NCBI RefSeq assembly: GCF_030553055.1
Contig: NZ_CP130713.1
Coordinates: 6,820,001 to 6,884,000, forward strand
Length of the DNA: 64,000 nt
DNA from: Streptomyces sp. XD-27
GTDB taxonomy: Bacteria > Actinomycetota > Actinomycetes > Streptomycetales > Streptomycetaceae
Reading direction: 5' to 3'
In this document: positions 4,658 through 22,188 of the stretch, piece after piece
How positions within the stretch are numbered: the stretch's first letter is position 1
Layout: each line of letters opens with the position of its first letter
Program-made: the position numbers and the translations under genes
Notes under the pieces: model-generated
The model's database searches: none
Told to the model about the DNA's origin: nothing
What the model saw: only the letters and a program-made list of their open reading frames with translations

Positions 4658-5338
4658 CTAAATCCGGTCCGGAGCGGGGTCCTCGGCGCGGTCCTCCGAG
4701 GCGGTCCCGCGGGCCACGACCGGGGAGTGCGCGCCCTCCGGATCCGGAATGGCGAAGATCCGCAGGAAGAACTGCGACAGCGGCCCGATGGCCAGCGCGT
4801 ACGCCACCGTCCCGACGCCGATTGGCCCGCCGAGCAGGAAGCCCGTCGCCAGCACGGTGACCTCGATGCCCGTCCTCATCAGCCGGATCGAGCGGCCGGT
4901 GCGCTTGTGCAGCCCCGTCATCAGCCCGTCGCGCGGGCCCGGCCCGAAGCGCGCGGAGATGTACAGGCCCGTCGCCACCCCGTTGAGGACGATCGCCGCG
5001 ACCAGCAGCGGAATCCGGACCGCCAGGGAATCCGGCTCCGGCAGCAGCCACAGCCCCCCGTCCACGGCCAGGCCGATCACGAAGACGTTGGACACGGTGC
5101 CGAGCCCCGGCCGCTGCCGCAGCGGAATCCACAGCAGCAGCACCGCCGCGCCGACGACGATCACCACCGTGCCGAACGACAGCGGAGTGCGCTCGGCGAC
5201 CCCCTGGTGGAAGACGTCCCACGGGTCGAGCCCGAGGGTGGCCCGCAACTGCATCGCCATGCTCGCCCCGTACAGGACGAGCCCCGCGTACAGCTGGACG
5301 AGACGACGGGTGAGGTGCGACCCCCCGGGTGTGGACAA
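4658..5338 (-). CDS. YczE/YyaS/YitT family membrane protein
   Basis: An integral membrane protein of about 226 residues with five or so predicted helices (for example TVVIVVGAAVLLLWIPL and IPLLVAAIVLNGVATGLYIS). Motifs LYGASMAMQLRATLGLDPWDVFHQG and FGPGPRDGLMTGL are typical of the YczE group, whose transported substrate is unknown. I chose a TTG start at 5338 because AGGAG (5345-5349) lies six bases upstream and the protein-like sequence begins there; the frame stays open further upstream without meaning. The gene is divergent from a MocR-type regulator, an arrangement seen for yczE-yczR in other bacteria, so it is probably controlled by that neighbour. Confidence 0.8.
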   Translation of the reverse strand: MSTPGGSHLTRRLVQLYAGLVLYGASMAMQLRATLGLDPWDVFHQGVAERTPLSFGTVVIVVGAAVLLLWIPLRQRPGLGTVSNVFVIGLAVDGGLWLLPEPDSLAVRIPLLVAAIVLNGVATGLYISARFGPGPRDGLMTGLHKRTGRSIRLMRTGIEVTVLATGFLLGGPIGVGTVAYALAIGPLSQFFLRIFAIPDPEGAHSPVVARGTASEDRAEDPAPDRI

Positions 5339-7085: not shown

Positions 7086-8684
7086 TTACGGCGTTCCCAC
7101 CGGCCCCGGCTTCGTCAGCAGCCCCGGCACCGGCCCCGGCGCCTCCGGTGCGGCGGCCGTCGGCCCCGGTGGCTGCGGCAGCAGCCCCAGCACCGCCTGC
7201 CGCTGCTGCTCGCCGGTGGCGCTGTCGTACGGATCCGGGGTGGCCGGGACCTGGAGCCGGTGCACCGGGCCCGCGCCCAGCCGGGCGTACCCGCGGCCCG
7301 GCGGCATGTCGTGGACCGGCGTGGTGTGCGGCGGCTCGCCCAGCACGGCGGTGACGTACTCGTACGGCGCCGGACCGAGCACCACGCGCGCCCGGGCGAG
7401 GGACCAGACGGGCTCGCCGAGCGCCTCCGCGCTGTCGCAGTGGTCGGCCACCACCACGGTGACGTTCGCCGCCCGGCCGTACCGCAGCGGCACCTGGAGG
7501 AGCTCCACCGGGTCCCGCCGCCCGCCTCCCGAGGCGCCGCCCCCGGCCGCCGCGAGCTGGCCGAGCACCGAGGGCCGGTCCAGGACGAGCCACAGCGGCC
7601 GGTCGACGTCCTCCGGCAGTGGACGGCCGTGCTGCCGGGACCGGTTGGCGGCGATGAGTCGCCGCTCGGTCTCGTGGGCGGCCCACTCCAGCATCGCGAG
7701 CGTCCCGGCCAGGTCGCACTCCACGGCCAGCACTCCGGGCCGCCCGGTCAGGAACGCGTAGTCGCCCGTGCCGCCGCCGTCCACCACCGTGACGTCGCCG
7801 TGCTGCAGCACCTGGAGCACGATGGACCGCAGCAGCGTCGTCACGCCGCTGCCGGGCTGACCGAGCGCCAGCAGATGCGGCTCGGCGGAGCGCGGGCCGG
7901 TGCGCCACACCACCGGTGACGCGTCGCGCGTCGCGCCGCCGTCGACGACGACCGGCAGCGTACGGGCCACGTCGCCGGGGTCGGTGAACCCCAGGACCGT
8001 CTCGCCCTGCGCGGTGACGAAGCGCTGCGCCGCGACGCCCGTGGACAGCGGGGGCAGCACGGTCACGTGGAGTCGGTTCCCCTCCTCGTCCCAGTCGAAG
8101 AGGTACTCCCGGCCGCGCCCCGACTTCGCGTACAGCAACTGCTCGACGCGGCGGCGGGCTTCCGGCTCGCCATCGGTGAAGTACGCGGGGTAGCGCAGCC
8201 GCAGCCTGATCAGCCGGCCGCCCTCGTCGAACGCGTGGTCCTCGAAGGCGGACGTCCACACCCCGCCGTACCGGTACAGCGGATCGCAGTCCTGCGGCAC
8301 CGAGAAGTAGGGCACCAGCGCGTCGTAGAGCGTCTGGAGCCGCTCCGTTCCGGCGGTGCCCGGGGCGGCGGCGCCGACCGCCGCGCCCCGCCCGGCCCAG
8401 GCGGCCGCGCCCATCAGTCCGAGCAGCGCCAGCAGCGGCCCGTACGGGATCAGCGGGATGACGGCGAGACAGGCGGCCGCGAGGAACACCACGGGGCCGC
8501 GCCGGTCCTTCGGCGTACGGAGCCAGCCGCGCCGCGCCCGGGCCGCCAGCTCGCGCAGCCCGCGCAGGAGGATCAGCAGCGGTTGCAGGACATCGGCGGA
8601 GCCGTCGGTGACGGCGCGGGGGAGCCGGGCGAGTCGAGGGAGCCGGGGGAGCGGTGGCCGTGGCACGTCAGATCTTGATTCCAC
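7086..8684 (-). CDS. FtsK/SpoIIIE-like protein with degenerate Walker A
   Basis: A protein of about 532 residues with an amino-terminal Pro/Arg-rich stretch, two membrane helices (about 63-100) and a RecA-like domain resembling FtsK and TraB DNA pumps. The phosphate loop reads GQPGSGVTTLL at 275-285: Val replaces the Lys expected in GxxGxGK(T/S). A Walker-B-like strand follows (PLWLVLDRP). ATP hydrolysis may therefore be lost or rely on another residue. The GTG start at 8684 overlaps the end of the upstream 64-residue membrane gene by 17 bp, suggesting translational coupling; a second in-frame GTG at 8666 is also possible. Function unknown; a conserved streptomycete membrane ATPase or DNA-transfer relative is likely. 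Confidence 0.65.
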   Translation of the reverse strand: MESRSDVPRPPLPRLPRLARLPRAVTDGSADVLQPLLILLRGLRELAARARRGWLRTPKDRRGPVVFLAAACLAVIPLIPYGPLLALLGLMGAAAWAGRGAAVGAAAPGTAGTERLQTLYDALVPYFSVPQDCDPLYRYGGVWTSAFEDHAFDEGGRLIRLRLRYPAYFTDGEPEARRRVEQLLYAKSGRGREYLFDWDEEGNRLHVTVLPPLSTGVAAQRFVTAQGETVLGFTDPGDVARTLPVVVDGGATRDASPVVWRTGPRSAEPHLLALGQPGSGVTTLLRSIVLQVLQHGDVTVVDGGGTGDYAFLTGRPGVLAVECDLAGTLAMLEWAAHETERRLIAANRSRQHGRPLPEDVDRPLWLVLDRPSVLGQLAAAGGGASGGGRRDPVELLQVPLRYGRAANVTVVVADHCDSAEALGEPVWSLARARVVLGPAPYEYVTAVLGEPPHTTPVHDMPPGRGYARLGAGPVHRLQVPATPDPYDSATGEQQRQAVLGLLPQPPGPTAAAPEAPGPVPGLLTKPGPVGTP

Positions 8685-9585: not shown

Positions 9586-10008
9586 ATGACCGAGAACTTC
9601 CGTACCCACGTCCTTGAGATCACCACCGGCCGCGAGGAGGCCGTGGTCGATCTGACCGCCGACTGCGAGGCGTTCCTGCGCGAGTGGGCGGGAGGCCGGG
9701 ACGGGCTGCTCAACGTCTTCGTCCCGCACGCCACCGCCGGTGTGGCGGTTCTGGAGACGGGGGCCGGCAGCGACGCCGACCTGCTGGCCGCGCTCCGCGA
9801 CCTGCTGCCCGCCGACGACCGCTGGCGCCACCGGCACGGCAGCCCCGGCCACGGCCGCGACCACGTCCTGCCGGCGATCGTCCCGCCGCACGCGACCCTG
9901 CCGGTCATCGGCGGCAGGCTGGCGCTCGGCACGTGGCAGTCGGTCTGCCTGGTCGACACGAATGTCGACAATCCCCACCGTCAGGTCAGGCTCTCGTTCC
10001 TAGGGTGA
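9586..10008 (+). CDS. YjbQ/UPF0047 family protein
   Basis: A 140-residue member of the UPF0047/YjbQ family, often annotated as secondary thiamine-phosphate synthase because E. coli YjbQ has weak activity of that kind; the true role is unsettled. Family marks include VPHATAGVAVLE near 47, a His-rich stretch RHRHGSPGHGRDHVLPAI, and GTWQSVCLVDTN near the end. The ATG at 9586 follows GAGGATGGGG. The protein is of normal length. It converges with the minus-strand hypothetical gene at 10128, with only 119 bp between stops. Confidence 0.85.
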   Translation: MTENFRTHVLEITTGREEAVVDLTADCEAFLREWAGGRDGLLNVFVPHATAGVAVLETGAGSDADLLAALRDLLPADDRWRHRHGSPGHGRDHVLPAIVPPHATLPVIGGRLALGTWQSVCLVDTNVDNPHRQVRLSFLG

Positions 10009-10127: not shown

Positions 10128-10655
10128 TCACCGGGTATGGAAGGCACCGCGGTCGATGAGGCCCTGGATGTAGGGCGGCCAGTCCCGCTCCAGGCTCTGG
10201 GCGATGCCGTCGTGCACGTCGCGCCGCAGCTGCGGGCCGACGTGCTCGACGTCGCCGTTCGGGTAGTGCAGTCGCAGGCCCTCGCGGCTGGCATCGCACA
10301 GGATGGCGTGGGCCTTCTGCGTGAGCGTGAGGTACAGCTGAGGGACAGGCGCGTTCAGCAGTTCGTCGAGGACCGCGTCATGGTCGATGCCGAGGTCCGC
10401 CCAGGTCGTACCCTGCTTGTCGAGCCACAGGGTGATGTCGGAGAAGAAGACGACCTTCCCGGGCCCCTCGTTCGCATCGCCGGCCAGGGCGGCGGCGACA
10501 TCGAGCGCGGTGCCGGCGCCTTGACTTACGAGAGAGCGGGGAATCATCGTCGGCGCGATGACGGTTGCGCACTCCCCCCAGCCGTCGCGGGTCTGGGTTG
10601 GCCAGGGCAGACCCAGTACGAGCCATCCGGCCGGTGACAGCAGTGTGGTGTTCAC
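10128..10655 (-). CDS. Hypothetical protein
   Basis: A 175-residue soluble protein I do not recognise. It has no signal peptide or membrane helix. Central segments GKVVFFSDITLWLDKQGTTW and PVPQLYLTLTQKAHAILCD look like ordinary folded alpha/beta sequence, and codon use is typical of the chromosome. It starts with GTG at 10655 after a GGGGGAAG ribosome binding site. It is separated by 314 bp from the four-gene operon upstream on the same strand, so it is probably not part of it. Confidence 0.65.
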   Translation of the reverse strand: MNTTLLSPAGWLVLGLPWPTQTRDGWGECATVIAPTMIPRSLVSQGAGTALDVAAALAGDANEGPGKVVFFSDITLWLDKQGTTWADLGIDHDAVLDELLNAPVPQLYLTLTQKAHAILCDASREGLRLHYPNGDVEHVGPQLRRDVHDGIAQSLERDWPPYIQGLIDRGAFHTR

Positions 10656-10969: not shown

Positions 10970-11497
10970 TCAGCGTTCGAGATCGGCGTAGCGCACGACC
11001 TGGATGGCGAGACCGATGACCATGGCAGCCTCTGCCACCGAGACCAGGAGCAGCGCCCACTGCATCGGCCCGAGCAGCCAGTAGACGGTGAGGGCCGCGA
11101 GCGGGGCCGCGCAGAAGGTCAGCAGATCCACGGCGAGCTGGAACCGCTTGCGGGAGTGGCGGCGCGCGTCGCGGCGGTGCGCGGATTCCCAACCGAAGAC
11201 CTCGGTCCGTTCCGGTGTGAGTTCCTTGAGACGGGGGGCCAGTTCGTCCCGTACGTACCGGCCGACGGCCGAGATCTTCTCGTCGTTGACCAGATAGGTC
11301 CAGCCGAGGGTGACCGACAGCGGGGGCAGCAGGAGCAGCATGTCGAGATGGCCGCCCCCTGCCAGCGTCGAGCCGATCACCGCTGCCATGACCCCGAGGG
11401 TGGCGTAGATGAGGTTGTCCCGAAAGCCGATACGGGCTCGCTGCTCCTGCTTGATCTGCTCGTACTCGGCGAGCAGGAGTTGGCCGGTGTCGATCAC
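10970..11497 (-). CDS. Four-helix integral membrane protein (operon gene 4)
   Basis: A 175-residue protein with two hydrophobic hairpins: about 28-45 (LIYATLGVMAAVIGSTL) with 52-70 (MLLLLPPLSVTLGWTYLV), and about 124-140 (LLTFCAAPLAALTVYWLL) with 146-166 (ALLLVSVAEAAMVIGLAIQ). Between them lies a charged cytoplasmic segment (ERTEVFGWESAHRRDARRHSRKR). The start overlaps the stop of the 397-residue gene by 4 bp, so it is translationally coupled to the helicase/nucleosidase operon. In conflict systems such membrane proteins can act as pore-forming effectors or anchors; that role is only an analogy here. No named family is recognised. Confidence 0.75.
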   Translation of the reverse strand: MIDTGQLLLAEYEQIKQEQRARIGFRDNLIYATLGVMAAVIGSTLAGGGHLDMLLLLPPLSVTLGWTYLVNDEKISAVGRYVRDELAPRLKELTPERTEVFGWESAHRRDARRHSRKRFQLAVDLLTFCAAPLAALTVYWLLGPMQWALLLVSVAEAAMVIGLAIQVVRYADLER

Positions 11498-12687
11498 TTT
11501 GGTTCATTCTCCAGTCGGGCCAGTTGGGCCTCCAGGCCGCTGCGGCCGGTTCTCGCGGCGCCGCCGCGAAGGCGGGACAGGTCGGGGACCTCCAGGCGCA
11601 GTTGGCGGGCCAGGCGGGCGACGGCTTCCTCCGCCTCCTGCCGGGTGACCTGCCGTCGAGAGCCGAGGCGTTGGTCCAGGCGGTCCAGCAGAGCGCGCTT
11701 CCGCGGGGTTTCCGCCGGGCACCACACGCGGAAGAAGCGGCTGCCCGCCATGCGGTAGGTGCCGATGCGGGATACCGGGATTCCGTTCTCACCGAAGGCG
11801 GTGGCGGGCAGCGAGACCGACCAGGTGCCGTCGTCGTCCTGTTCCGGGGCGACTGAGTCGAGGTCCTGTTCGCGGAGCCAGTTCCGGGCGGCCCGCATGA
11901 CGCGCTCGTCCGCATCCTCGCCCTGCTCCTCGTTGTCGAGGGCGTTGATCAGCTCTGGAGTACGGGCGCACAGCTCGCTCAGCTCCGGGTCGTGTGCGGC
12001 CCCCGCCCCGGCCTGGCCGTAGACCAGGAGTCCCCCCTGGCCGCGCACCAGATAGACCGGCAGGAAGACGAGCTTCTCGTCCAGGCTCTCCAGCGCGTCC
12101 AACGCGACGGGCAGATTGAACCGGGCCCGGTCCTTGCGGTCTTTGAGACGGTCCAGGGCTGAGCGGTCGAATCCGGATGTCACGTGGATCGGGGTGAAGC
12201 GCGGGTAGCGGTCGCTCCGCGTCGCCCTGGCCAGTTCGTCGCCGGACAGCAGGGTCACGACGTCCTCGTCGTAGTGGACCCGCGTCAGCGGGGTACAGCT
12301 CAGGGCCTCGAAGTGCAGCTTGCGGCGGTCCTGACGCGTGACCACATAGCGGATGTCGTCGTCCACGGAGCGCTGTCCCAGTGACGTCAGGGACAGACGG
12401 TCCCCGGACTCCCGCAGGTGGCCGATCGCGGTCAGGAAGCGCACGGCCTGCGCGACCAGGGCACGGTCCAGGGCGAAGAACGCGGCGAGTTCGTCGACGG
12501 TGTGCAAGGCTCCGTGGCGCAGCCCGCGCTCCAGGAAGCGGTCGATGAGGAAGAAGTCCTCGCCCTCGGTGATGTCGGCGCGGATCTCCACCTGCCAGAC
12601 GGGCAGCAGCAGGGCGTAGAGCCGGGTGGGCACGATGCCCTGGCCGAAGGCGGCATCCTCCAGGACCCGCTCCTCGGGGAAGGGCAT
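11494..12687 (-). CDS. Uncharacterised protein (operon gene 3)
   Basis: A 397-residue soluble protein of unknown function. Residues about 45-110 look like a winged helix-turn-helix (FLERGLRHGALHTVDELAAF, then DRLSLTSLGQRSV), a fold often used for DNA or protein binding. The middle (about 130-290) is mixed alpha/beta with PRFTPIHVTSGFDRSAL and KLVFLPVYLVRGQGGLLVY. A carboxy-terminal helical region rich in Arg and Glu may form a coiled coil (RRQVTRQEAEEAVARLARQL). The gene starts 16 bp after the helicase stop and overlaps the membrane gene by 4 bp, so it is an integral part of the four-gene operon. It may be a specificity or adaptor subunit (inference). Confidence 0.75.
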   Translation of the reverse strand: MPFPEERVLEDAAFGQGIVPTRLYALLLPVWQVEIRADITEGEDFFLIDRFLERGLRHGALHTVDELAAFFALDRALVAQAVRFLTAIGHLRESGDRLSLTSLGQRSVDDDIRYVVTRQDRRKLHFEALSCTPLTRVHYDEDVVTLLSGDELARATRSDRYPRFTPIHVTSGFDRSALDRLKDRKDRARFNLPVALDALESLDEKLVFLPVYLVRGQGGLLVYGQAGAGAAHDPELSELCARTPELINALDNEEQGEDADERVMRAARNWLREQDLDSVAPEQDDDGTWSVSLPATAFGENGIPVSRIGTYRMAGSRFFRVWCPAETPRKRALLDRLDQRLGSRRQVTRQEAEEAVARLARQLRLEVPDLSRLRGGAARTGRSGLEAQLARLENEPK

Positions 12688-12703
12688 CAGGCGGGGGCGG
12701 TCG

Positions 12704-15700
12704 TCACACTCGGCCTCCTTCCGGGGCCAGGCCGGCGGCTTCGTCCAGGCCCGGGGCGGCTTCGTCGAGCGCCGCCATGACGTCCTGGTAGTCCCGTAGG
12801 TCGCCGCGGTCGAGCAGATGCCGGTGCAGGTCGTCGGCGAAAGCGCGGAAGTCGGGGTCGTCCGCGCGGAGCAGGGTGCTCAGGTCGCCCGTCAGCACCA
12901 GTTGGCTCTTGGCGCGAGTGAAGGCGACGTTGGCGCGGCGCAGCTCTTTCAGGAAGCCGATACGGCCATCGGGGTTGCTGCGCGTGAAACCGTAGAGGAC
13001 GACGTCGCTCTCCCCGCCCTGGTAGGAGTCGACGCTGCCGACCGAGGCGTCCGCGAGCTGGGAATCACCGATCAAGGTGGTGAGGTGGCGGACGACCTCC
13101 AGGCGCTGCGCGAGGTAGGGGACGATCACCACCCACTCGGAACCCCGCCCGTGGTAGAAGGCGGCGAGGCGGGCCAGGAGGCGCGCTTCACAGGTGTTGG
13201 AGGAGCCCTTGCGGCCGCGGCCCTCGGCGCGGTGTCCGCCCGACTCGCGACGTACACGGTCGGGCAGCGCGGCGGTGTCGACGAAGGCCATCGGGCTTGA
13301 GAACAAGGGGTCGGTGTGCCGGTGTTCCTTCTCGGTGAGCAGCTCCCCCTGGTAGAAGGCGGCCGAAATGAAGTCGGCGATCTCGGCGGGCATCCGGCGC
13401 TGCCGGGTCAGCTGGACGATGTGGGAGGAAGGCAGTCCGGCGCGCAGCTGCTCCAAGGCGCTCTGTGACGTCAGTCGGAGGAGTTCGGGGTCGCCGATGT
13501 CCTGGGCCCAGTCGGCCACCGCGGAGTCGAGGAAGGGCGGCAGTTGCCGGTCATCGCCGACCAGGACACCGCGGCGGACCCGGGTCAGCGGCACCAGCGC
13601 GTCCGGGACGCCGATCTGGCCGGCCTCGTCGACGATCCCCAGGTCGAAGTCGACTCCGGCCAGTTCGGGGCGGGACGCGGCCCCGATACAGGTGGCGCCG
13701 ACCACCTGGGCGTAGCGGACGAGTTCGGGCACCAGTTGGCCCGGGTCCTGGCCGATCGCGGCCTGCCACTGCCGGGTGAGTTCCTGACGCTGGGAGAGGA
13801 GCGGCAGCGACGCCTCCAGCTGTCGGTGCAGGGTGTGCAGGTCGGCTGCCGCATCGGCCGGATCCGGCAGCCGAGCGGGCGCGGATATGCCCGGCATGAC
13901 CGGGCCGAGCGCCCGGACGGCCATGTCGGCGGCCTCGTAGGCGGAGTGGACGCTCTCGCCGCGCCGACGCTCTGCCGCCTCACAGGCGGCCAGGGCCGAG
14001 CTGACGGCGGGGTCCTCGCGCGCCGCGCGCTCCGCCTCGGCGCGCTCCGCTTCGGCCTGCCGGCGCAGCTCGGGTCCCAGGGCGTCGAGCCGCTGAATCT
14101 CGTGCCGTACCGTGGTGAGCTCCTCCTCCCCGCGGCGGGCCCTGGAGCGGTGCAGCCGACCGGTCAACAGGGCATGGGAACGCTGCTGCGCGGACTCCAC
14201 CTTCGCCTGGAGCCGCGAAGCCCGCTCGGCGAGGCTCAGCCGGGCCGACTCCCTTTCGCTCTCCTCGCGTTGGAGTGAGGCAAGCCGCTCCCGGGCCGGT
14301 GCGGTGGACGCCCGGACGGCGTCCTGCAGACGCAGCGACGCGGCCTTCTCCTTCTGGATCAGGTCGCCGACCTGGTGGAGGCGGGCGGCGAGCTCCGCCG
14401 TCCACGGCGCGGCCGCTTCCGCCTCCTGGTATGCCTGTGTGCGTTGGGTCATGGCGCGTCGGATTCCCTCGGACAGGTTCTCCGACTGCTCCTCCAGGAG
14501 GAGTGGCCTCACATCGGCGTGGACCTTGCTCTCGTCCCCGACCCGGATCACTACGAGCTCCCGGGGCAGCCGGGCCAGTACGTTGTCCACGGCGCGGTTG
14601 GTGTGCGAGGTGACGAGGACCCGGCCGCCGCCGGAGGCGGTCGTGATCGCGGTGGTGTGGGCGATCTCGGTGATGGTCCGGGTCTTGCCGGTACCGGGCG
14701 GGCCGAGCACCACCAGCAGGTCCTCGGTGGTCAACGCCTTGCGGAAGGCGTCGAGTTGTTCGGGGTCGAGCTCCTCGTGCGGCGTCGCGGTCGTGGCCGG
14801 GACGGTGCGCACGCGGTGCTCGACCACTGCCGGGAGCAGGCCCGGATTCCTGGTGTCCCGCGCGCGGAGGCTCGCCACGGCCTGCCGCTGCTTGTTGAAG
14901 ACCACGTTGCTCGGAATCAGTTCCAGTGCTCCGCGAGCCGGCAGCCTTTCCCATGACACGGGCTGGTCGAAACGGACGGTGACGGACCTTCCCGCGGTCC
15001 GGCTCACCTTGCCACGGGTCTCCGTATCGCCCTGGATGCGGAGGAAGGTGCCGACTGCTGGCAACTCCGGCCCGATGAGCTGGAATTCGTACACCGATTG
15101 CGGAGCGCTGCTGCGCCTGCCGCCGGTGGTCGTCAGGCGCTGATACAGGAAGGGGGCGGCCTCGCGCTCTTCCCGTGTGGTGATCTCCTCGGTCGCGTCG
15201 ATCAGCCGGTCCACCGTGTCGAGGAACTCCGACTGGGCTTCGCTGACGGAGGAGGTTTCCTCCTGCTGCTGTGCAGGCGTTTGGCTGAGACGTTGCCAGG
15301 CCTCTTCAAGTACCCGCCACTGGGCGTCCGAGCCCTCGGGCACCGCCCTCAGTTCGAAAACCATCCGCCAGGCGGGCGGGCGCACCAGGAGACAGGACCG
15401 GGCAAGGCGCGCGTGGTCGGCGAGGCGCAGCGGATCGATGTGCTTGACGAAGTAGCCGGTACCTCGGTTCGTGGCCTCCAGGCGCAGCCGGTACGTACGC
15501 GTGTGCACCAGCAAGGACGGCTTGTACTTGCCGTTGCTCGGGCTGACGCTCACGGCGGCGCCGCCCTCGAGCTGGTTCAGATCGTGGATGATCCGTGAGA
15601 CGTCGGGCGGTAACCCGGCGCTGGACTCGGCCTTCGTGCGGAGCTGTTCGTCCAGCGTGTGTCCCGGGACGAGCACCAGCGGAGCGCGCAGGGCGACGGT

Positions 15701-15712
15701 GGCGACGGACAT
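12704..15712 (-). CDS. Superfamily 1 helicase, Upf1/DNA2-like (operon gene 2)
   Basis: A 1002-residue ATP-dependent nucleic-acid translocase. Walker A GPPGTGKT is at 337-344, Walker B VDEAGQ at 694-699, motif III GDDRQLPP at 719-726, a motif V-like segment VDSYQGGESDVV at 894-905 and motif VI RRANVAFTRAKSQL at 925-938, all intact. DEAG rather than DEAD/DExQ and the order of motifs fit the Upf1/DNA2/SMUBP group. Between motifs Ia and II a 150-residue Arg/Glu-rich coiled coil (about 440-590) is inserted, and 330 unassigned residues precede the helicase. The AGGAG ribosome binding site overlaps the stop of the nucleosidase-pseudokinase gene (12 bp spacing), so the two are translated together. 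Stand-alone helicases of this type occur often in anti-phage operons. Confidence 0.88.
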   Translation of the reverse strand: MSVATVALRAPLVLVPGHTLDEQLRTKAESSAGLPPDVSRIIHDLNQLEGGAAVSVSPSNGKYKPSLLVHTRTYRLRLEATNRGTGYFVKHIDPLRLADHARLARSCLLVRPPAWRMVFELRAVPEGSDAQWRVLEEAWQRLSQTPAQQQEETSSVSEAQSEFLDTVDRLIDATEEITTREEREAAPFLYQRLTTTGGRRSSAPQSVYEFQLIGPELPAVGTFLRIQGDTETRGKVSRTAGRSVTVRFDQPVSWERLPARGALELIPSNVVFNKQRQAVASLRARDTRNPGLLPAVVEHRVRTVPATTATPHEELDPEQLDAFRKALTTEDLLVVLGPPGTGKTRTITEIAHTTAITTASGGGRVLVTSHTNRAVDNVLARLPRELVVIRVGDESKVHADVRPLLLEEQSENLSEGIRRAMTQRTQAYQEAEAAAPWTAELAARLHQVGDLIQKEKAASLRLQDAVRASTAPARERLASLQREESERESARLSLAERASRLQAKVESAQQRSHALLTGRLHRSRARRGEEELTTVRHEIQRLDALGPELRRQAEAERAEAERAAREDPAVSSALAACEAAERRRGESVHSAYEAADMAVRALGPVMPGISAPARLPDPADAAADLHTLHRQLEASLPLLSQRQELTRQWQAAIGQDPGQLVPELVRYAQVVGATCIGAASRPELAGVDFDLGIVDEAGQIGVPDALVPLTRVRRGVLVGDDRQLPPFLDSAVADWAQDIGDPELLRLTSQSALEQLRAGLPSSHIVQLTRQRRMPAEIADFISAAFYQGELLTEKEHRHTDPLFSSPMAFVDTAALPDRVRRESGGHRAEGRGRKGSSNTCEARLLARLAAFYHGRGSEWVVIVPYLAQRLEVVRHLTTLIGDSQLADASVGSVDSYQGGESDVVLYGFTRSNPDGRIGFLKELRRANVAFTRAKSQLVLTGDLSTLLRADDPDFRAFADDLHRHLLDRGDLRDYQDVMAALDEAAPGLDEAAGLAPEGGRV

Positions 15713-15724
15713 CGGCGGCGCTCC

Positions 15725-17482
15725 TCAGCGCTGGGGCGGCGGGACGGACGACAGCTCGCGGACAGCGGCGAGCAGGGCGAGGCGGAGCGTACGTACGCCT
15801 GGGCGCGCGCCCGGGTCCTGCCGCAGCGCACCGGCGACCGCGTGGACGAGGCTGTCCGGCACGGAGGCCGAGCCGCGGTAGGGAGGCAGCCCGGGGGCGG
15901 GGGTCCTGCCGGTCAGGGCTCGGTAAAGCAGCGCGCCAAGCTGGTAGACGTCGGTGGCGGGTCCGGGGCGGATACCGGAGCCGTACCGCTGCTCGGGTGC
16001 CTGATAGGGCCCGGGGTTCTCGCCAAGGCGGGGTGGCACGGCGGCGAGGCCCAAGTCGCGCAGCACCATGTGCGGCCGGTTCATGACGACCGCGGTCGGC
16101 CGGAGCGCCCGGTGTGATAACCCCTCGCTGTGCAGCCCATCGAGGACTTCGGCCACTTCGGTGAACCCCTTCACGATCGACCACAGCCGCAGCGGGTCCG
16201 TCGGCGCGGGCTGCTCGGGCAGCAGTTCGTGCAGGGTCTCCAGGGGCCGGCCGAACCTCGCGTCGGCCGGCCAGGCCAGGGCCAGGGTGGCGGTGTTCCC
16301 ACGACGGGCCAGTTGTACGACGTCGGGGCCGCGGAAGGCGCGACACAGCCCCGCCTCCTGTTCGAGCGCGGCCAGGGGGTCGAAGCGGCCCGGACTGGGC
16401 GGCCGCGCCCACTCGACCTGGCGCAGCCACGCGTAGGAGCCGCGGGAGTCCCGGTCGGACACCACCCGTGCCACGGCCTGACGCCGTATCACGTCGCCGT
16501 CCCTCCACTCGTGGAGGAGGTCCTCGGGACCTTCGTACAGCAGGTACTCCCGTTCCCCGACCTCGACGACGGGCCGGGTGTCCCAGGCCGCGGGGCCGGA
16601 TCCGCGGTCGGGTCCGGACACCACGACGACAGCGGGCCGCTGAGGCCGCTCTTGGGCCGGTCGCCCGGCGGGGCGCAGGTCGCGCAGCACCCGCAGCGCG
16701 AAGGCGGCGGCGTGCCGTGACGCCGTCTCCTGGGAGCCCGCGGCGTCCGACGCGGCCTTGCCGGGGTCGGCGAAGTCGCTGATACCGCGGACGGACAGCA
16801 TCCGCACCCCCCGGTGCATGGCGGCCGCGTGTGCAACGCCCTGGCTCTCCATGTCGACGGCCGCGGCGTCGTTGTAGTGGCTGCGGATCCGGCGGACCGT
16901 CTCGGAGTCCCGGGAGCCGATCAGGACATCGCCCGAGGCGATCGGTTCGAAGTGCACCCGGGGCGGCGCGGTGGGCTGCGGCGCCGCGGTGGGGGTGAGG
17001 AAGGCCCACGGCTTGTTACGGCGGGCGGAGCGCACCAACTGGTCCATGTCGTACGACGGTCGCCAGGCCTCGGGCCGAGCGTTGAACCTGTCCGAGCTCT
17101 CCCGGCCGCCTTGATAGTCGTAGATCTTCCTGGCGACCACGACGTCCCCGAGGCGGAGATCGTCCTTGAGCGCACCGGCGACGCCGACGAAGAACACCGC
17201 CTCGGCATCGAAGTACTCGATCGTGGGCTGCGTGACGAGCGCGGCACGGGTGTTGGTGGGGCCCGTCTCGGCCAGTGCCACCTCCCAGTTGAGGCCGGGT
17301 ATTCGGCCGACGTCGAGGAGGGTGCCCTGCGGCAGCTCGACTTCGCGGACGTCCTCCAGGTGCCGGCGGACCGCCTCGTACTCCACCTGTAGGGCGGTGA
17401 GCACGACCACGGTGGGCCGCCGACTTCGCGCTCCCCCCAACGGAACCCCTTCACCTTCACGGGATCTGCGACTCGACCCCAC
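15725..17482 (-). CDS. Nucleoside phosphorylase-pseudokinase fusion (operon gene 1)
   Basis: A 585-residue two-domain protein. Residues about 23-270 match the MTA/SAH nucleosidase-PNP superfamily: VEYEAVRRHL (33-42), VAGALKDDLRLGDVVVA (101-117), VDMES (209-213) and VRGISDFAD (231-239). The Glu and Asp used for catalysis in that family are present, so cleavage of a nucleoside or nucleotide is plausible. Residues about 300-580 form a protein kinase fold: APE at 495-497, the helix F Asp in TDVYQLGALLYRALTG (510-525), but HRAL at 457-460 replaces HRDL and no beta-3 Lys is evident. DLG at 476-478 stands for DFG. It is therefore probably a pseudokinase. The start is uncertain: GTG 17482, or TTG 17440 behind AAGGGG. 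It begins an operon with the helicase, the 397-residue protein and the membrane protein. Confidence 0.85.
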   Translation of the reverse strand: MGSSRRSREGEGVPLGGARSRRPTVVVLTALQVEYEAVRRHLEDVREVELPQGTLLDVGRIPGLNWEVALAETGPTNTRAALVTQPTIEYFDAEAVFFVGVAGALKDDLRLGDVVVARKIYDYQGGRESSDRFNARPEAWRPSYDMDQLVRSARRNKPWAFLTPTAAPQPTAPPRVHFEPIASGDVLIGSRDSETVRRIRSHYNDAAAVDMESQGVAHAAAMHRGVRMLSVRGISDFADPGKAASDAAGSQETASRHAAAFALRVLRDLRPAGRPAQERPQRPAVVVVSGPDRGSGPAAWDTRPVVEVGEREYLLYEGPEDLLHEWRDGDVIRRQAVARVVSDRDSRGSYAWLRQVEWARPPSPGRFDPLAALEQEAGLCRAFRGPDVVQLARRGNTATLALAWPADARFGRPLETLHELLPEQPAPTDPLRLWSIVKGFTEVAEVLDGLHSEGLSHRALRPTAVVMNRPHMVLRDLGLAAVPPRLGENPGPYQAPEQRYGSGIRPGPATDVYQLGALLYRALTGRTPAPGLPPYRGSASVPDSLVHAVAGALRQDPGARPGVRTLRLALLAAVRELSSVPPPQR

Positions 17483-17528: not shown

Positions 17529-18452
17529 TCACTCTAGCCCGTATGTCCCGGAGCCCATTCGGTAGCCCGTTGCCTCCGACGACGCGACGGACCTGAGTGC
17601 CTCCAAGAGTCGTTTGAGCGCCGGGGTAAGGGGCCCGGCCTGGACTGCGAGCGATGTGGTGAGGGCAAGACCGGTCAGGGGACGGAGTGCTGTTCGGGGT
17701 GCCGGCGGCAGCCCTGAGACCTCGTAGAAGACCGTCCAGGAGGGGGCGTCGGTACCGATGTCGATCAGGGTCTGCCGAAGGCTGGTGAACGGCGGTCCTG
17801 GCGGGGGCTCGGTGCCGGCCCTCCGGCAGGCATCGAGGACCAGGTCGTGGAAGGGAGGGTTCCCGTCGCGTGCGGCGAGACGCAGCGGCAGGTCGGCGAG
17901 GTGTTCCAGCCGTAGCAGGGGTTCGTCCGCCAGCGCGTGGTCGGCGGGCAGCGCGACGTACAGAGGGTCGCTCCACACCGGGATCAGCCTCAGCCCCGGC
18001 GCCGCGGTCACGGCGCGCACCAGCGCGGCGTCCAGCTCGCCCGACCGCACGGCTGCCAGCCGGTCGGTCGGCGGAGCCTGCTCGAGCCGGACACGCAGCC
18101 GTGGAGCGCCCGCGGCGAGCTCGACAAGGGCGCGGTAGAGCCGGTCCCCGGGGCCGTGGATGGCTCCCAGCCGCAGGCCGCCGTCGGTACCGGCCGCGAT
18201 GTCGGCCGCCACCTGACGGGTACGGTCCGCCGCGGCGAGCACGGTCCGCGCCTCGACCAGCAGACGCTCACCGGCGGCCGACAGACGCACGTGCCGGGTC
18301 GACCGGTTGAACAGCGGCAACCCGAGCTCGCGCTCAAGCCTGCGGATCTGCTGGCTCACAGCCGACTGCACGATGGTCAACCGCTCGGCGGCCCGCCCGA
18401 ATCCGCCCTCCTCGGCCACGGCGACGAAGTACCGCAACTGTCGTAGCTCCAT
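17529..18452 (-). CDS. LysR family transcriptional regulator
   Basis: A 307-residue LysR-type regulator. Residues 1-60 form the winged HTH (MELRQLRYFVAVAEEGGFGR, then QSAVSQQIRRLERELGLPLF), and about 90-300 the ligand-binding domain of periplasmic-binding-protein fold. It is divergent from the cupin gene with 136 bp between, and the shared region holds a CCACAA/TTGTGG inverted repeat, the usual arrangement for a LysR target. It stops only 46 bp before the nucleosidase-pseudokinase gene on the same strand; no terminator is visible between them, so read-through into that operon is possible. Confidence 0.9.
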   Translation of the reverse strand: MELRQLRYFVAVAEEGGFGRAAERLTIVQSAVSQQIRRLERELGLPLFNRSTRHVRLSAAGERLLVEARTVLAAADRTRQVAADIAAGTDGGLRLGAIHGPGDRLYRALVELAAGAPRLRVRLEQAPPTDRLAAVRSGELDAALVRAVTAAPGLRLIPVWSDPLYVALPADHALADEPLLRLEHLADLPLRLAARDGNPPFHDLVLDACRRAGTEPPPGPPFTSLRQTLIDIGTDAPSWTVFYEVSGLPPAPRTALRPLTGLALTTSLAVQAGPLTPALKRLLEALRSVASSEATGYRMGSGTYGLE

Positions 18453-19140: not shown

Positions 19141-21075
19141 CTACGTCTCGAGGAGGTCATGCGCCTTCAGCGCAGTCGTAGAGGGTGTGGCTTCCGCCCG
19201 GGGGCCGACCGTAGGCGCTGGGGGGATGCGGGTGCAGTTCTTCTTCACCCAGGCCGATGCCGGTGTGGTCGGGCGGCGCGTGGTGAGCAGGGCGTAGCGC
19301 AGTTGGTGGGTGGAGACCAGGTCGCTGAGCCGTCGTGCGGTCGGATAGGGGGTCAGGCCGGTGAAGCCGCCCATGACCAGGATGGGTTGGGAAGTGGCGC
19401 GCAGCAGGGGCTCGGCGCCGTAGGCGGCCTGGGTGGCGAGCAGGTACTTCTCCCCGGAACGGTGCGCGGAGAGGTAGTTCAGCAGTGCGGTGTCCCGGGC
19501 GGACGGTTTACTCAAGGGGAATCGTGGGACCTTGACCGGGTGGTGGTGCCTGGCGTCATAGCCGGGTCCGACCGGTCCTGCCAGTGGCTCCATCGCTGAG
19601 CCGGGGTACCGCGGGTGCAGGCAGGAGGCGGCCCAGACGGCCGGGGCGAGCAGGACGGCCGTCAGGGACGCTGCCAGGGCGCCGTGCACCGTCCGTCGTG
19701 CGGTGTCCGGCCCGCTGGTCCACAGGCCGACGGTCCCGCACAGGCCCAGCATCAGCACCACCGGTAGCAGCCAGGGCGCGAATCCGCTGTGCGGGCCGTC
19801 GATGGCGGCTGCCCACAGTGCGGTGAGGGCGACCGCGACGGGCAACGCCCGCCGACGTCGGCCGCCGGCGCGGTACTCGGCCCAGAAGAGGGCAACTCCG
19901 CTACCCGTCAGCGCGGCGAGGGCCGGGGCCAGTACGGTCGTGTAGTAGCCGTGGTTGCCGTTGGAGTTGCTGAAGACCACGATGTGTACCACCAGCCAGC
20001 CGCCCCAGAGCAGGAGCCCTGCCCGCGGCCCGTCGGTGCGCGGTTGTCCGGCGCGCCACCACACGCCCAGCGCCAGGGCCAGCACGGCGAGCGGCAGGAG
20101 CCAGGCGATCTGCGGGCCCACGGTGTGGTTGACCACCATGCTCCACCCCGTGTTGCCGGTGGAGCGGCTGGCGGCCGTGCCGGCGACGGCGCCCAGCGCG
20201 TGCGGGTCGTCGCCGAAGCGGCTCAGCCCGTTGTAGCCGAAGACCAGGGTGAAGGGGTTGTTGTCGGTGGTCCCGTCGATGTAGGGGCGGTGCGCGGCGG
20301 GGGAGGCCCATACCAGCAGCAGCCAGGAGCAGGAGACGACGAGTGCGGTGATCCCGGCGAGGAGCAGCCGCCGGGCCCGGTCCAGCCGGGAGCCGGGCGC
20401 TGCCCAGAGGTACACCGCGGCGAAGACCGGCAGAACGAGCCACGCTTGGAGCATCTTGGCCTGGAAGGCCAGCCCCACCCATGCCCCGCAGCCGAGCAGC
20501 GGCAGCAGCCTCCCGGTGGCGACGGCCTTCTGCAGCGACCCCGCCGCGAGGACCAGCAGCAGGACGAGCAGGGTGTCGGGGATGTTGTGCCGGTTGAGCG
20601 CGACGGTGACCGGAGTGAGGGTGAGTACCAGCGCGGCGAGCAGCCCTGCGAAGGGGCCGGCCCAGGCGCGGACGATCCGGTGCAGCACCCAGACGGCGAG
20701 GACGCCCTCCAGCACCTGCGGCAGTACCACCGCCCAGGTGTACGGTCCGAATAGCCTGACGGAAAGGGCCTGCGGCCACAGCGCACCGGGGATCTTGTCC
20801 ACGGTGATCGAGCCGCTCGGGTCGAGCCCGCCGAAGACGAAGGCGTTCCAGTCCGCCGCCATCGACCGCACGGCGGCGCTGTAGTACGGGTGCACCGGGG
20901 TACGGCCGATGCCCCAGGCGTAGAGCACCGCGGCAGCCGCCAGGATCAGCAGCAGGGCGTATGCCTCCCGGCTGATGGTGGTCCGTCGACGGCGCTTGGC
21001 GTGGCCGCCGCGTCTGGTGCGGTGCGTGCGGTGGTGGCGGTCGGTGGGGTCCCGGGTGAGGGTGGCGGCGTCCAT
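19141..21075 (-). CDS. GT39/ArnT-like membrane glycosyltransferase
   Basis: A 644-residue polytopic protein of the dolichyl-phosphate mannosyltransferase/ArnT class, which moves a sugar from a polyprenyl-phosphate donor to an acceptor outside the membrane. The amino end is basic and cytoplasmic. After the first helix (AYALLLILAAAAVLYAWGIG) comes the extracellular loop with HPYYSAAVRSMAADW and FGGLDPSGSITVDKIP, equivalent to the catalytic acidic loop of ArnT. About ten more helices follow, then a soluble domain from about residue 545 (YLLATQAAYGAEPLL). ATG 21075 follows AGGAG. It reads in the same frame as the upstream NlpC gene only because that gene is frameshifted. It lies at the distal end of the probable poly-gamma-glutamate operon, 38 bp after the NlpC gene. 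Confidence 0.85.
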   Translation of the reverse strand: MDAATLTRDPTDRHHRTHRTRRGGHAKRRRRTTISREAYALLLILAAAAVLYAWGIGRTPVHPYYSAAVRSMAADWNAFVFGGLDPSGSITVDKIPGALWPQALSVRLFGPYTWAVVLPQVLEGVLAVWVLHRIVRAWAGPFAGLLAALVLTLTPVTVALNRHNIPDTLLVLLLVLAAGSLQKAVATGRLLPLLGCGAWVGLAFQAKMLQAWLVLPVFAAVYLWAAPGSRLDRARRLLLAGITALVVSCSWLLLVWASPAAHRPYIDGTTDNNPFTLVFGYNGLSRFGDDPHALGAVAGTAASRSTGNTGWSMVVNHTVGPQIAWLLPLAVLALALGVWWRAGQPRTDGPRAGLLLWGGWLVVHIVVFSNSNGNHGYYTTVLAPALAALTGSGVALFWAEYRAGGRRRRALPVAVALTALWAAAIDGPHSGFAPWLLPVVLMLGLCGTVGLWTSGPDTARRTVHGALAASLTAVLLAPAVWAASCLHPRYPGSAMEPLAGPVGPGYDARHHHPVKVPRFPLSKPSARDTALLNYLSAHRSGEKYLLATQAAYGAEPLLRATSQPILVMGGFTGLTPYPTARRLSDLVSTHQLRYALLTTRRPTTPASAWVKKNCTRIPPAPTVGPRAEATPSTTALKAHDLLET

Positions 21076-21113
21076 GGCGGGGCTCCTTTGGCTGCGGGCT
21101 GGTGGCGTCGGCT

Positions 21114-22188
21114 TCACAGGCGGCGGGCCATGCGAAACCCCTGGGCGTAGAAGCCATGGCCGTCGAGCGTGGCGCGGCCGGCCAGGTCGCCCATGGTGGG
21201 CCCGTTGGCCCGTGAGCGGCTGGAATAGAAGCGCGGATGCCCGTCGGTGTCCGGCCCCAGGTACATGCCGACGTGGTCGATGGCGCGAGGTCGGCCGATC
21301 TCGATGGCGAAGAAGACGAGGTCGCCGGGGAGTAGCCGGCTGATGTCGGCAGGTGGCCGGCCGGTGTTCGGGATCAGCAGCACGCCGGGGCCCGGTCGGC
21401 GATGGCGTAGGCCCGGCGGGCAGACCGGTCCCCGGGTTGTTGGTGGCGTGCATGGGGTAGCCCATGCGGTAGCCCCAGACCAGGCGCATGAAGCCGGAGC
21501 AGTCCACGTCCCCGTAGCGCTTCTTCTCCGGGTGCTTGCGGATGCCGTCGGGGAAGGTCCAGGGAACGCCGAGGTAGTCGTAGAAGTCGGACTTCTCATC
21601 GCGGGAATGGAACGACGTCGGCGACTGCCCTGGCAGGAGCGGCCCGAAGTGGGCCTTGCCGGCGTAGCGCAGGCCGGAGTCGGTGCGCAGATCGGGCGCC
21701 CCGTCGCCGTACTGGAAGGCCACGGCGATGACGTCCGGACTGCGGTCGGCAAGGGCCTTGGGGAACCATCCCCGGAACCAGCGGGTTCGCTCCTTGCCCC
21801 GACTCCATGCGCCGTCCATCAGCCGCACCCAGGCGTCGCCGCGCACCACCGCGCCGGTGGTGCGCGGCTCGCTCCAGGTACGGGTCGGGCCGGTCAGCAG
21901 CGCGGTGCGGGCGCCGTCGGTGAAGGTGGCCAGTACGCGGCCGTCGGCGGCGCGGACCACGGTACGGGCGGGCGCGGCGAGGCGCTCGAAGCGGTAGCCG
22001 CCGGTCGGCACCGAGACGTCACCGTCCCCCGGAACGTCACCGTCCCCCGGAACGTCACCGTCCGGTGTGCCGCTTCGGGAGTGGTGCCATGCGTATCCGC
22101 CGACCGCTCCGGCAGCGGCCAGACCGGCGGCGGACGCCAGGATCTGACGGCGGCTGGGCCTGCCGGTCGGGGTGGGGTTGGTGCCCAT
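21114..22188 (-). pseudogene. Exported NlpC/P60 hydrolase, frameshifted
   Basis: A probable cell-wall or gamma-glutamyl hydrolase. The amino end has a twin-arginine signal (SRRQILASAAGLAAAGAVGG). Residues about 40-52 are DGDVPG repeats. A beta-rich segment precedes the NlpC/P60 domain, whose catalytic Cys lies in DVDCSGFMRLVWG and His in RAIDHVGMYLG. The two halves are in different frames: after NNPGTGLP the protein-like sequence moves through RRAYAIADRAP to GVLLIPNTGRPP, ending FRMARRL. Adding one base at the run 21418-21420 and one at 21387-21390 restores one 358-residue protein. GAGGAG precedes ATG 22188. NlpC/P60 enzymes such as B. subtilis PgdS cleave poly-gamma-glutamate, which fits the PgsB/PgsC neighbours. 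Confidence 0.8.
22016..22065 (-). repeat. 18-bp tandem repeat in the NlpC/P60 gene
   Basis: Two perfect 18-bp units and a partial third (22016-22033, 22034-22051, 22052-22065) encode a DGDVPG linker just after the signal peptide. It is a likely site of length variation. Confidence 0.9.

Follow-up and report, generated by a model that had tools for sequence, protein, structure and literature searches.

A Mokosh-like operon of Streptomyces sp. XD-27 with its predicted effector on a pseudokinase

The described systems closest to the locus reported here include the Mokosh systems, of which type I and type II are both listed with a PLD-like domain (PMC10952713) and type II is described as a helicase plus a nuclease (PMC10013915, PMC10740426); the Mokosh mechanism is only loosely described in this literature. 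Effectors of the PNP superfamily (Cap17 / ATP nucleosidase) occur in CBASS, Detocs, pAgo, DRT8 and NLR-like systems (PMC10952713), conflict systems with PNP or TIR domains have a two-transmembrane (2TM) SLATT partner (Kaur 2020, PMC7159879), and BASS motifs stand at the N-termini of NLRs (PMC7889193, PMC8086366). Here we describe a four-gene operon of Streptomyces sp. XD-27, found in a stretch of 64,000 nucleotides (hereafter the window; positions 6,820,001–6,884,000 of one single 7.55 Mb contig), that encodes a PNP-pseudokinase fusion, a superfamily 1 (SF1) helicase, an MkoB-like protein and a membrane protein. On balance, its sequences suggest a Mokosh-like system against invaders, the effector of which has been moved onto the pseudokinase.

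Organization and recurrence of the operon

The operon and its domains are laid out as follows.

15725..17482, minus strand: PNP-pseudokinase fusion, 585 residues as given, start uncertain (17482, 17440 or 17410)
16685..17413, minus strand: PNP/MTAN-type nucleosidase domain (Pfam, alignment, fold)
15746..16570, minus strand: pseudokinase domain (motif alignment)
12704..15712, minus strand: SF1 (Upf1/IGHMBP2-type) helicase, 1002 residues (Pfam, PADLOC, motifs)
12884..14770, minus strand: core of the helicase, its AAA motifs separated by an insertion (Pfam)
11494..12687, minus strand: MkoB-like protein, 397 residues, winged helix, no PLD (HKD) motif (PADLOC, hhalign)
12352..12564, minus strand: winged-helix domain of the MkoB-like protein, residues 42–112 (model, fold search)
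10970..11497, minus strand: membrane protein, 175 residues, accessory partner of the PNP module (co-occurrence)

The four open reading frames of the window are spaced by 12, 16 and −4 bp, and their coordinates are exactly those given by an earlier note on this DNA, which had described four coupled minus-strand genes. The LysR gene at 17529–18452 was rejected as a member of the unit because no relative of it was present among the 34 loci described below. A search of Rfam gave no match, and a promoter scan returned nothing clearly above shuffled sequences.

A scan of genome contigs with an MkoB alignment and one conserved peptide pattern yielded 34 loci, from Streptomyces, Amycolatopsis, Actinomadura, Saccharothrix, Umezawaea, Glycomyces and others. 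The helicase gene stands directly before MkoB in all 34, and a kinase-like gene precedes the helicase in 32 of them (29 from the gene caller, three from open frames) as well as in the window; the exceptions are L027, which is cut by a contig end, and L042, in which no kinase-like gene was found. Among 295 Streptomyces genomes, 5 have MkoB (the source genome counted, and one of the five with a fragment), and so do 2 of 61 genomes, again with the source genome counted; L122, in genome G146, holds an MkoB fragment only. The gene set thus recurs jointly yet sporadically, which argues against the two outcomes named in the earlier note as speaking against a defence system, namely homologues that always occur singly and a housekeeping role shared by all streptomycetes.

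The helicase and the MkoB-like protein

The helicase is matched by AAA_11 (5.5e-42) and AAA_12 (5.3e-31) of Pfam and carries an insertion between its AAA motifs; the earlier note had called it Upf1-like with a coiled-coil insertion. Its best PADLOC match is MkoA (1.3e-100, profile positions 326–1082). The Walker A motif (GPPGTGKT) and the DEAGQ motif are intact in the window; among all 35 helicases, Walker A is present in 34 (the 35th, of L027, is cut) and DEAGQ in 35. The kinase part of the fusion protein also matches PADLOC MkoA, at profile positions 86–283 (E 3.3e-11), and the 397-residue protein matches MkoB (E 3.6e-11). Judged by these profile matches, to separate regions of MkoA and to MkoB, the operon follows the plan of Mokosh type I, with MkoA divided between two genes. 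The earlier note did not know the combination as a named system; the operon does differ from the named types, but its helicase, kinase part and 397-residue protein all match the models of Mokosh MkoA and MkoB. No description of the split form was found in the open-licence literature searched. A ubiquitin-like N-terminus of the helicase was considered and dropped: polyubiquitin chains were listed for residues 12–55, no stretch of which passed alone, and these matches are probably an effect of tandem copies.

For comparison we used five plasmid loci in which kinase and helicase are fused (L109–L113). Their MkoB neighbours match MkoB in 5 of 5 cases, and the three MkoA proteins scanned (L109, L110 and L111) are matched over nearly their full length. 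Alignment of the MkoB-like proteins with the five canonical MkoB proteins by hhalign gave a probability of 96.5 (E 8.4e-10, 109 columns). In the model of the MkoB-like protein (predicted local distance difference test score (pLDDT) 89), a MarR-type winged helix is seen at residues 42–112, in agreement with the probable winged helix noted earlier; beyond this domain a Foldseek search gave no lead, the rest of the model being barely covered. Pfam gave nothing above its cut-off for either the 397-residue or the 175-residue protein. The HKD motif is absent from all 35 MkoB-like proteins. Of the five canonical MkoB proteins, four show it on inspection by eye (L111 does not; alignment A3), and PLD is listed by Pfam for two of the five, once under the cut-off; the C-terminal region that holds PLD is missing from the MkoB-like proteins in alignment A3. 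These losses bear on the idea that the operon works by degrading nucleic acid, with MkoB destroying invader RNA or DNA. The homology to Mokosh, the PLD-like domain listed for both types (PMC10952713) and the pairing of helicase and nuclease in type II (PMC10013915, PMC10740426) would all fit such a function; however, with HKD gone from 35 of 35 proteins together with the region around it, we regard it as very improbable.

In a tree of the helicases (which omits L027), 36 split helicases form one group against the five fused MkoA proteins, with support 100/100. A related but unannotated locus lies on plasmid AZO_p1 of Azospirillum lipoferum (L156:249-8701) and encodes a kinase, a helicase and an MkoB relative in the same order. 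Its kinase, split from the helicase, has HRD, Asn and DFG intact; a second kinase protein of 683 residues has an MkoA-like kinase part behind a first part that looks PP2C-like by eye, the MkoB relative has no HKD by eye, and one further protein gives a CorA-like match. L156 is a possible intermediate form. As far as motifs tell, the split arrangement also occurs with a live-looking kinase, and the range of Mokosh-type systems extends beyond types I and II. Separately, a Sphingomonas plasmid (L161:134-6186) carries a NERD protein together with a long MkoA and an MkoB, both of the second PADLOC type; as annotated, two overlapping frames share the helicase part.

Loss of the kinase motifs

In the fusion protein, Pfam PNP_UDP_1 matches residues 24–266 and Pkinase matches residues 436–530, the latter under its cut-off, and the proposed fusion of a nucleosidase domain to a kinase fold is thereby borne out. 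In the window the catalytic Lys is replaced by Arg354 and the HRD Asp by Ala459, Asn is lost, and the DFG-type Asp476 is kept. The same pattern is seen throughout the 33 kinase-like proteins compared, a set that leaves out L027 (contig cut) and L042 (no kinase): none of the 33 retains Asn, 32 have Arg in place of Lys, and 30 have lost the HRD catalytic Asp, whereas all 33 keep the alpha-C Glu and the DFG-type Asp. Not one of the 33, the window's protein included, has Lys, Asp and Asn together. By contrast, the five fused plasmid MkoA proteins keep Asp and Asn in 5 of 5 and Lys in 4 of 5 (L111 reads Arg in the alignment). Going by these motifs, the kinase is dead in all 33 proteins. The earlier note was thus right to call the domain a pseudokinase, but its choice of Lys343 as the key residue does not hold: residue 343 is Asp, which excludes it as the catalytic lysine, and the altered Lys site is Arg354. 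The anatomy of these proteins supports a proposed role of the pseudokinase as fixed connector and of the variable N-terminus as output.

The PNP domain and other N-terminal modules

The PNP domain is matched by the PADLOC model 'Effector PN-superfamily' (E 1.2e-20). An AlphaFold model of the fusion protein (pLDDT 83.5; predicted template-modelling score 0.59) gives this domain the fold of an MTA/SAH nucleosidase (MTAN), with TM-scores to target of 0.81–0.88 among the 50 matches listed. Glu212 and Asp236, both singled out by the earlier note, are invariant in 35 of 35 aligned proteins; mapped by motif, they would correspond to the MTAN catalytic residues. By analogy with other PNP effectors (PMC10952713), the PNP output is probably a nucleosidase, with an adenine nucleotide as its most likely substrate.

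The N-terminus of the pseudokinase differs between relatives. Among the 33 proteins it is a PNP domain in 15 (the window, L011–L023 and L030), SEFIR in 4 (L024–L026 above the Pfam cut-off, L043 below), a RHIM-like motif in 7, an NG..xGDQ motif in 3 (one of them behind a BTAD domain) and a hydrophobic type in 4, the last with hydrophobic stretches near the N-terminus and a coiled coil by appearance. The RHIM-like motif, NxVxGxVxGxVVQAGxIxGxVHxH, was found by pattern in six proteins and in L036 by eye only; a homology search did not return the L036 protein, and the pattern also matches six frames outside these kinases. On the helicase tree, seven module labels need at least 8 changes where the minimum is 6, so that the modules mostly follow clades, with few exchanges. 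Just upstream of SEFIR-type operons, a related minus-strand gene recurs (L024:3911-4465, L026:3269-4444, L043:3909-4460), possibly the source of the bSEFIR matches among neighbouring genes mentioned below. In 4 of 7 genomes with the RHIM-like form, the motif is also found, by eye, before a P-loop NTPase (L144, L146, L147 and L154), an arrangement like that described for BASS motifs and NLRs (PMC7889193, PMC8086366). No amyloid-motif partner adjoining the RHIM-type operons was found by pattern, and no neighbour family is common to at least three of them.

In necroptosis, RIPK kinases bear a RHIM, and MLKL combines a helical membrane domain with a pseudokinase. A similar logic can be conceived here, with the pseudokinase as a universal socket through which a single sensor, helicase plus MkoB, would drive interchangeable death modules: the enzymes PNP and SEFIR, a helical module of hydrophobic type, or a RHIM-like amyloid motif recruiting effectors in trans. 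We hold this only tentatively. If true, it would amount to a non-NLR bacterial immune sensor with amyloid signalling and to an architectural parallel of necroptosis; and should the RHIM-like forms prove to signal, they would speak to a question raised in PMC7889193, whether bacteria have amyloid signalling outside NLR pathways.

Pairing of the membrane protein with the PNP domain

Of 295 Streptomyces genomes, 73 carry the membrane family, 60 this PNP domain (scored on the best four candidates, E at most 1e-40) and 59 both (p 3e-47, uncorrected for kinship). Among 77 places with a membrane gene, from which three second fragments of broken genes are omitted, 31 lie within 500 bp of such a PNP and 54 within 8 kb. 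An intact membrane gene was seen in the stretch examined for 10 of 17 PNP-type operons against 0 of 18 others (Fisher p 1e-4, uncorrected for kinship; L116, a duplicate of L016, is left out). The gene comes last in PNP-type operons but first, before the PNP-pseudokinase, in L114 and L115, and at L119 a PNP-pseudokinase adjoins it with neither helicase nor MkoB. Since the pairing tracks PNP (59 of 60 genomes, 10 of 17 against 0 of 18, and L119), the membrane gene is the partner of the enzyme, not of the helicase/MkoB sensor. The earlier note had rightly placed a membrane protein in the operon. The analysis ties this membrane family, with 885 homologues at an E-value limit of 0.001 (the best 120 of them listed), to PNP effectors.

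Related arrangements were also seen. At L119:4028-7708, a PNP-pseudokinase, a membrane protein and a second PNP gene stand side by side. In L118:5003-11500 and L120:5035-11001, a membrane family gene lies directly before a PNP protein of 367 or 374 residues without a helicase, and three more genes, similar in size, follow; this forms a recurrent PNP/membrane unit. Behind MkoB in L015:10191-10344, a broken remnant of the membrane gene shows loss of the accessory gene.

Such close pairing could reflect a two-step effector, in which no depletion is involved: the PNP enzyme would produce or eliminate a signal derived from a nucleotide, and this signal would gate the membrane protein, which disrupts the membrane. 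The co-occurrence and proximity counts above, the position of the gene ahead of the PNP-pseudokinase rather than after MkoB in L114 and L115, and the 2TM SLATT partner of PNP/TIR systems (PMC7159879) all point in this direction. However, 7 of 17 PNP-type operons (among them L015, with just the remnant) have no intact membrane gene in the stretch examined, no SLATT match was obtained from Pfam at E up to 1 (a search made with the single protein only), and the strongly conserved charged residues of the membrane protein could equally mean a regulator or an enzyme. We therefore consider a two-step effector somewhat unlikely. Alternatively, the membrane protein might restrain the PNP enzyme in an immunity-like manner by tethering it to the membrane; the tight association with PNP genes, divergent ones included, is compatible with restraint, but the same 7 of 17 operons lack an intact copy nearby, and we judge this alternative unlikely.

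Proposed mechanism

In the Mokosh-like reading that we prefer, the helicase and the winged-helix MkoB would detect foreign (phage) nucleic acid, by analogy with Mokosh and with Upf1-type helicases. The pseudokinase, separate from the helicase, would not phosphorylate but would act as a docking and release module. Upon activation, the PNP domain would hydrolyse a cellular nucleoside or nucleotide at its N-glycosidic bond, with an adenine nucleotide as the likeliest target, and phage growth would be stopped by depletion or by a base-derived signal, the membrane protein working with the PNP enzyme. Computation establishes the operon and its recurrence, the lost kinase and PLD motifs, the conserved motifs of nucleosidase and helicase, the variety of N-terminal modules and the pairing of membrane gene and PNP; the sensing of nucleic acid, the relay, the substrate, the outcome and phage defence itself are what we infer. 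A defence operon with helicase sensor and nucleosidase effector, as the earlier note suggested, remains the best reading of a set that recurs sporadically, with sensing and defence as its inferred parts.

Genomic surroundings

The left-flank gene at 7086–8666 is present in 37 of 41 genomes, its own included. When the 19.5 kb regions of eight relatives were compared, only window genes up to 9494 mapped, and the operon and the genes to its right are therefore absent from this place in those eight relatives. Upstream of 14 PNP-type loci no gene family is common to at least three. On the downstream side, relatives of the window's UPF0047 gene (9586–10008) lie near the operon in L013, L015, L016, L018 and L021, and relatives of a small gene of unknown function (10128–10655) in L011 and L017; the loci thus do not all have different neighbours. 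Further out, window 19141–22188 is one long open reading frame that resembles two genes read as one: by eye its first part looks like a secreted protein, and a PMT_2/YkcB mannosyltransferase makes up the second.

A regulatory or housekeeping operon of the chromosome, unrelated to defence, would account for the chromosomal location among neighbours that are ordinary where checked and, downstream, partly common to streptomycetes. However, presence in only 5 of 295 Streptomyces genomes and effector-type modules that vary between relatives are hard to reconcile with such a role, and we consider it improbable.

Whether the relatives lie in defence islands, the check suggested in the earlier note, was examined with 127 neighbours (up to two on each side of the 34 loci, 60–900 residues, PADLOC at 1e-15). 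They match 59 PADLOC families, and among the 25 listed, bSEFIR has four members and DpdB, Orf5, PD-T4-6, HEC-06, mREase_IV and DrmD one each. The control, 101 genes from eight homologous regions, gave only two JetA3 models with 8 members each, and amounts to one region sampled eightfold. Eight large neighbours run singly against PADLOC gave nothing at 1e-10. Neighbours that match PADLOC families are thus present, but with this control an enrichment is only weakly indicated.

Several observations weigh against a Mokosh-like defence system. When other SF1 helicases are added to the tree, the split helicases do not group with the fused MkoA proteins but join the Azospirillum protein (SH-aLRT 89) on long branches. 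The likeness to canonical MkoB is confined to the N-terminal part, and L119 indicates that the link of the PNP-pseudokinase to the helicase is not exclusive. Searches for MkoB in viral contigs and in plasmids found none. Some downstream neighbours recur between loci, so common descent or a fixed site, and not free mobility, may account for part of the distribution within Streptomyces. In the window itself, no PADLOC match was obtained for the neighbours LysR, 19141–22188, 7086–8666 and 4658–5338 (the others were searched by Pfam only), and the defence-island enrichment around relatives is only suggestive. Because the split helicases do not join the fused MkoA proteins in that tree and the Azospirillum locus combines the split arrangement with a live-looking kinase, we term the system, on present sequence evidence, Mokosh-like rather than a member of Mokosh.

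Comparison with known systems

The actinobacterial conflict systems of Kaur 2020/2021 (PMC7159879, PMC8195603) likewise have inactive kinases, PNP/TIR effectors, swapped effector domains and small membrane partners. They are, however, MoxR/vWA, STAND or GTPase systems, and a helicase–MkoB core is not among the descriptions in the available portions of these papers. PNP-superfamily effectors (Cap17 / ATP nucleosidase) also use a PNP domain with catalytic acidic residues as output module, whereas here the domain is fused to a pseudokinase beside a helicase and its substrate is a prediction. With BASS3, the RHIM-like amyloid signalling of NLRs, some relatives share a similar short N-terminal motif; here this motif heads a pseudokinase in a helicase system instead of an NLR, and an adjacent matching effector was not found.

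Mokosh type II (MkoC) is helicase and PLD nuclease in one protein, whereas the window has no PLD domain and MkoC matches its helicase only. Mokosh type I likewise comprises an SF1 helicase, a kinase-fold domain and a winged-helix MkoB in one operon, the PADLOC models match, and MkoB follows directly after the helicase, an adjacency kept here in 34 of 34 loci. In type I, kinase and helicase are fused in MkoA (L109–L113), whereas the window and 32 of 34 loci encode them in separate genes; MkoA mostly keeps its kinase motifs, which kinases of the window type have lost (33 of 33); and MkoB often, though not universally, carries PLD, whereas window-type MkoB is without HKD (35 of 35). With kinase motifs and PLD nuclease gone and effector-type domains varying on the kinase protein, the kinase fold would be a coupling element, and the lineage offers a direct test of the role of the helicase–MkoB core. 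Relative to Mokosh type I, then, the window adds a predicted N-terminal effector module on the kinase protein and a membrane gene.

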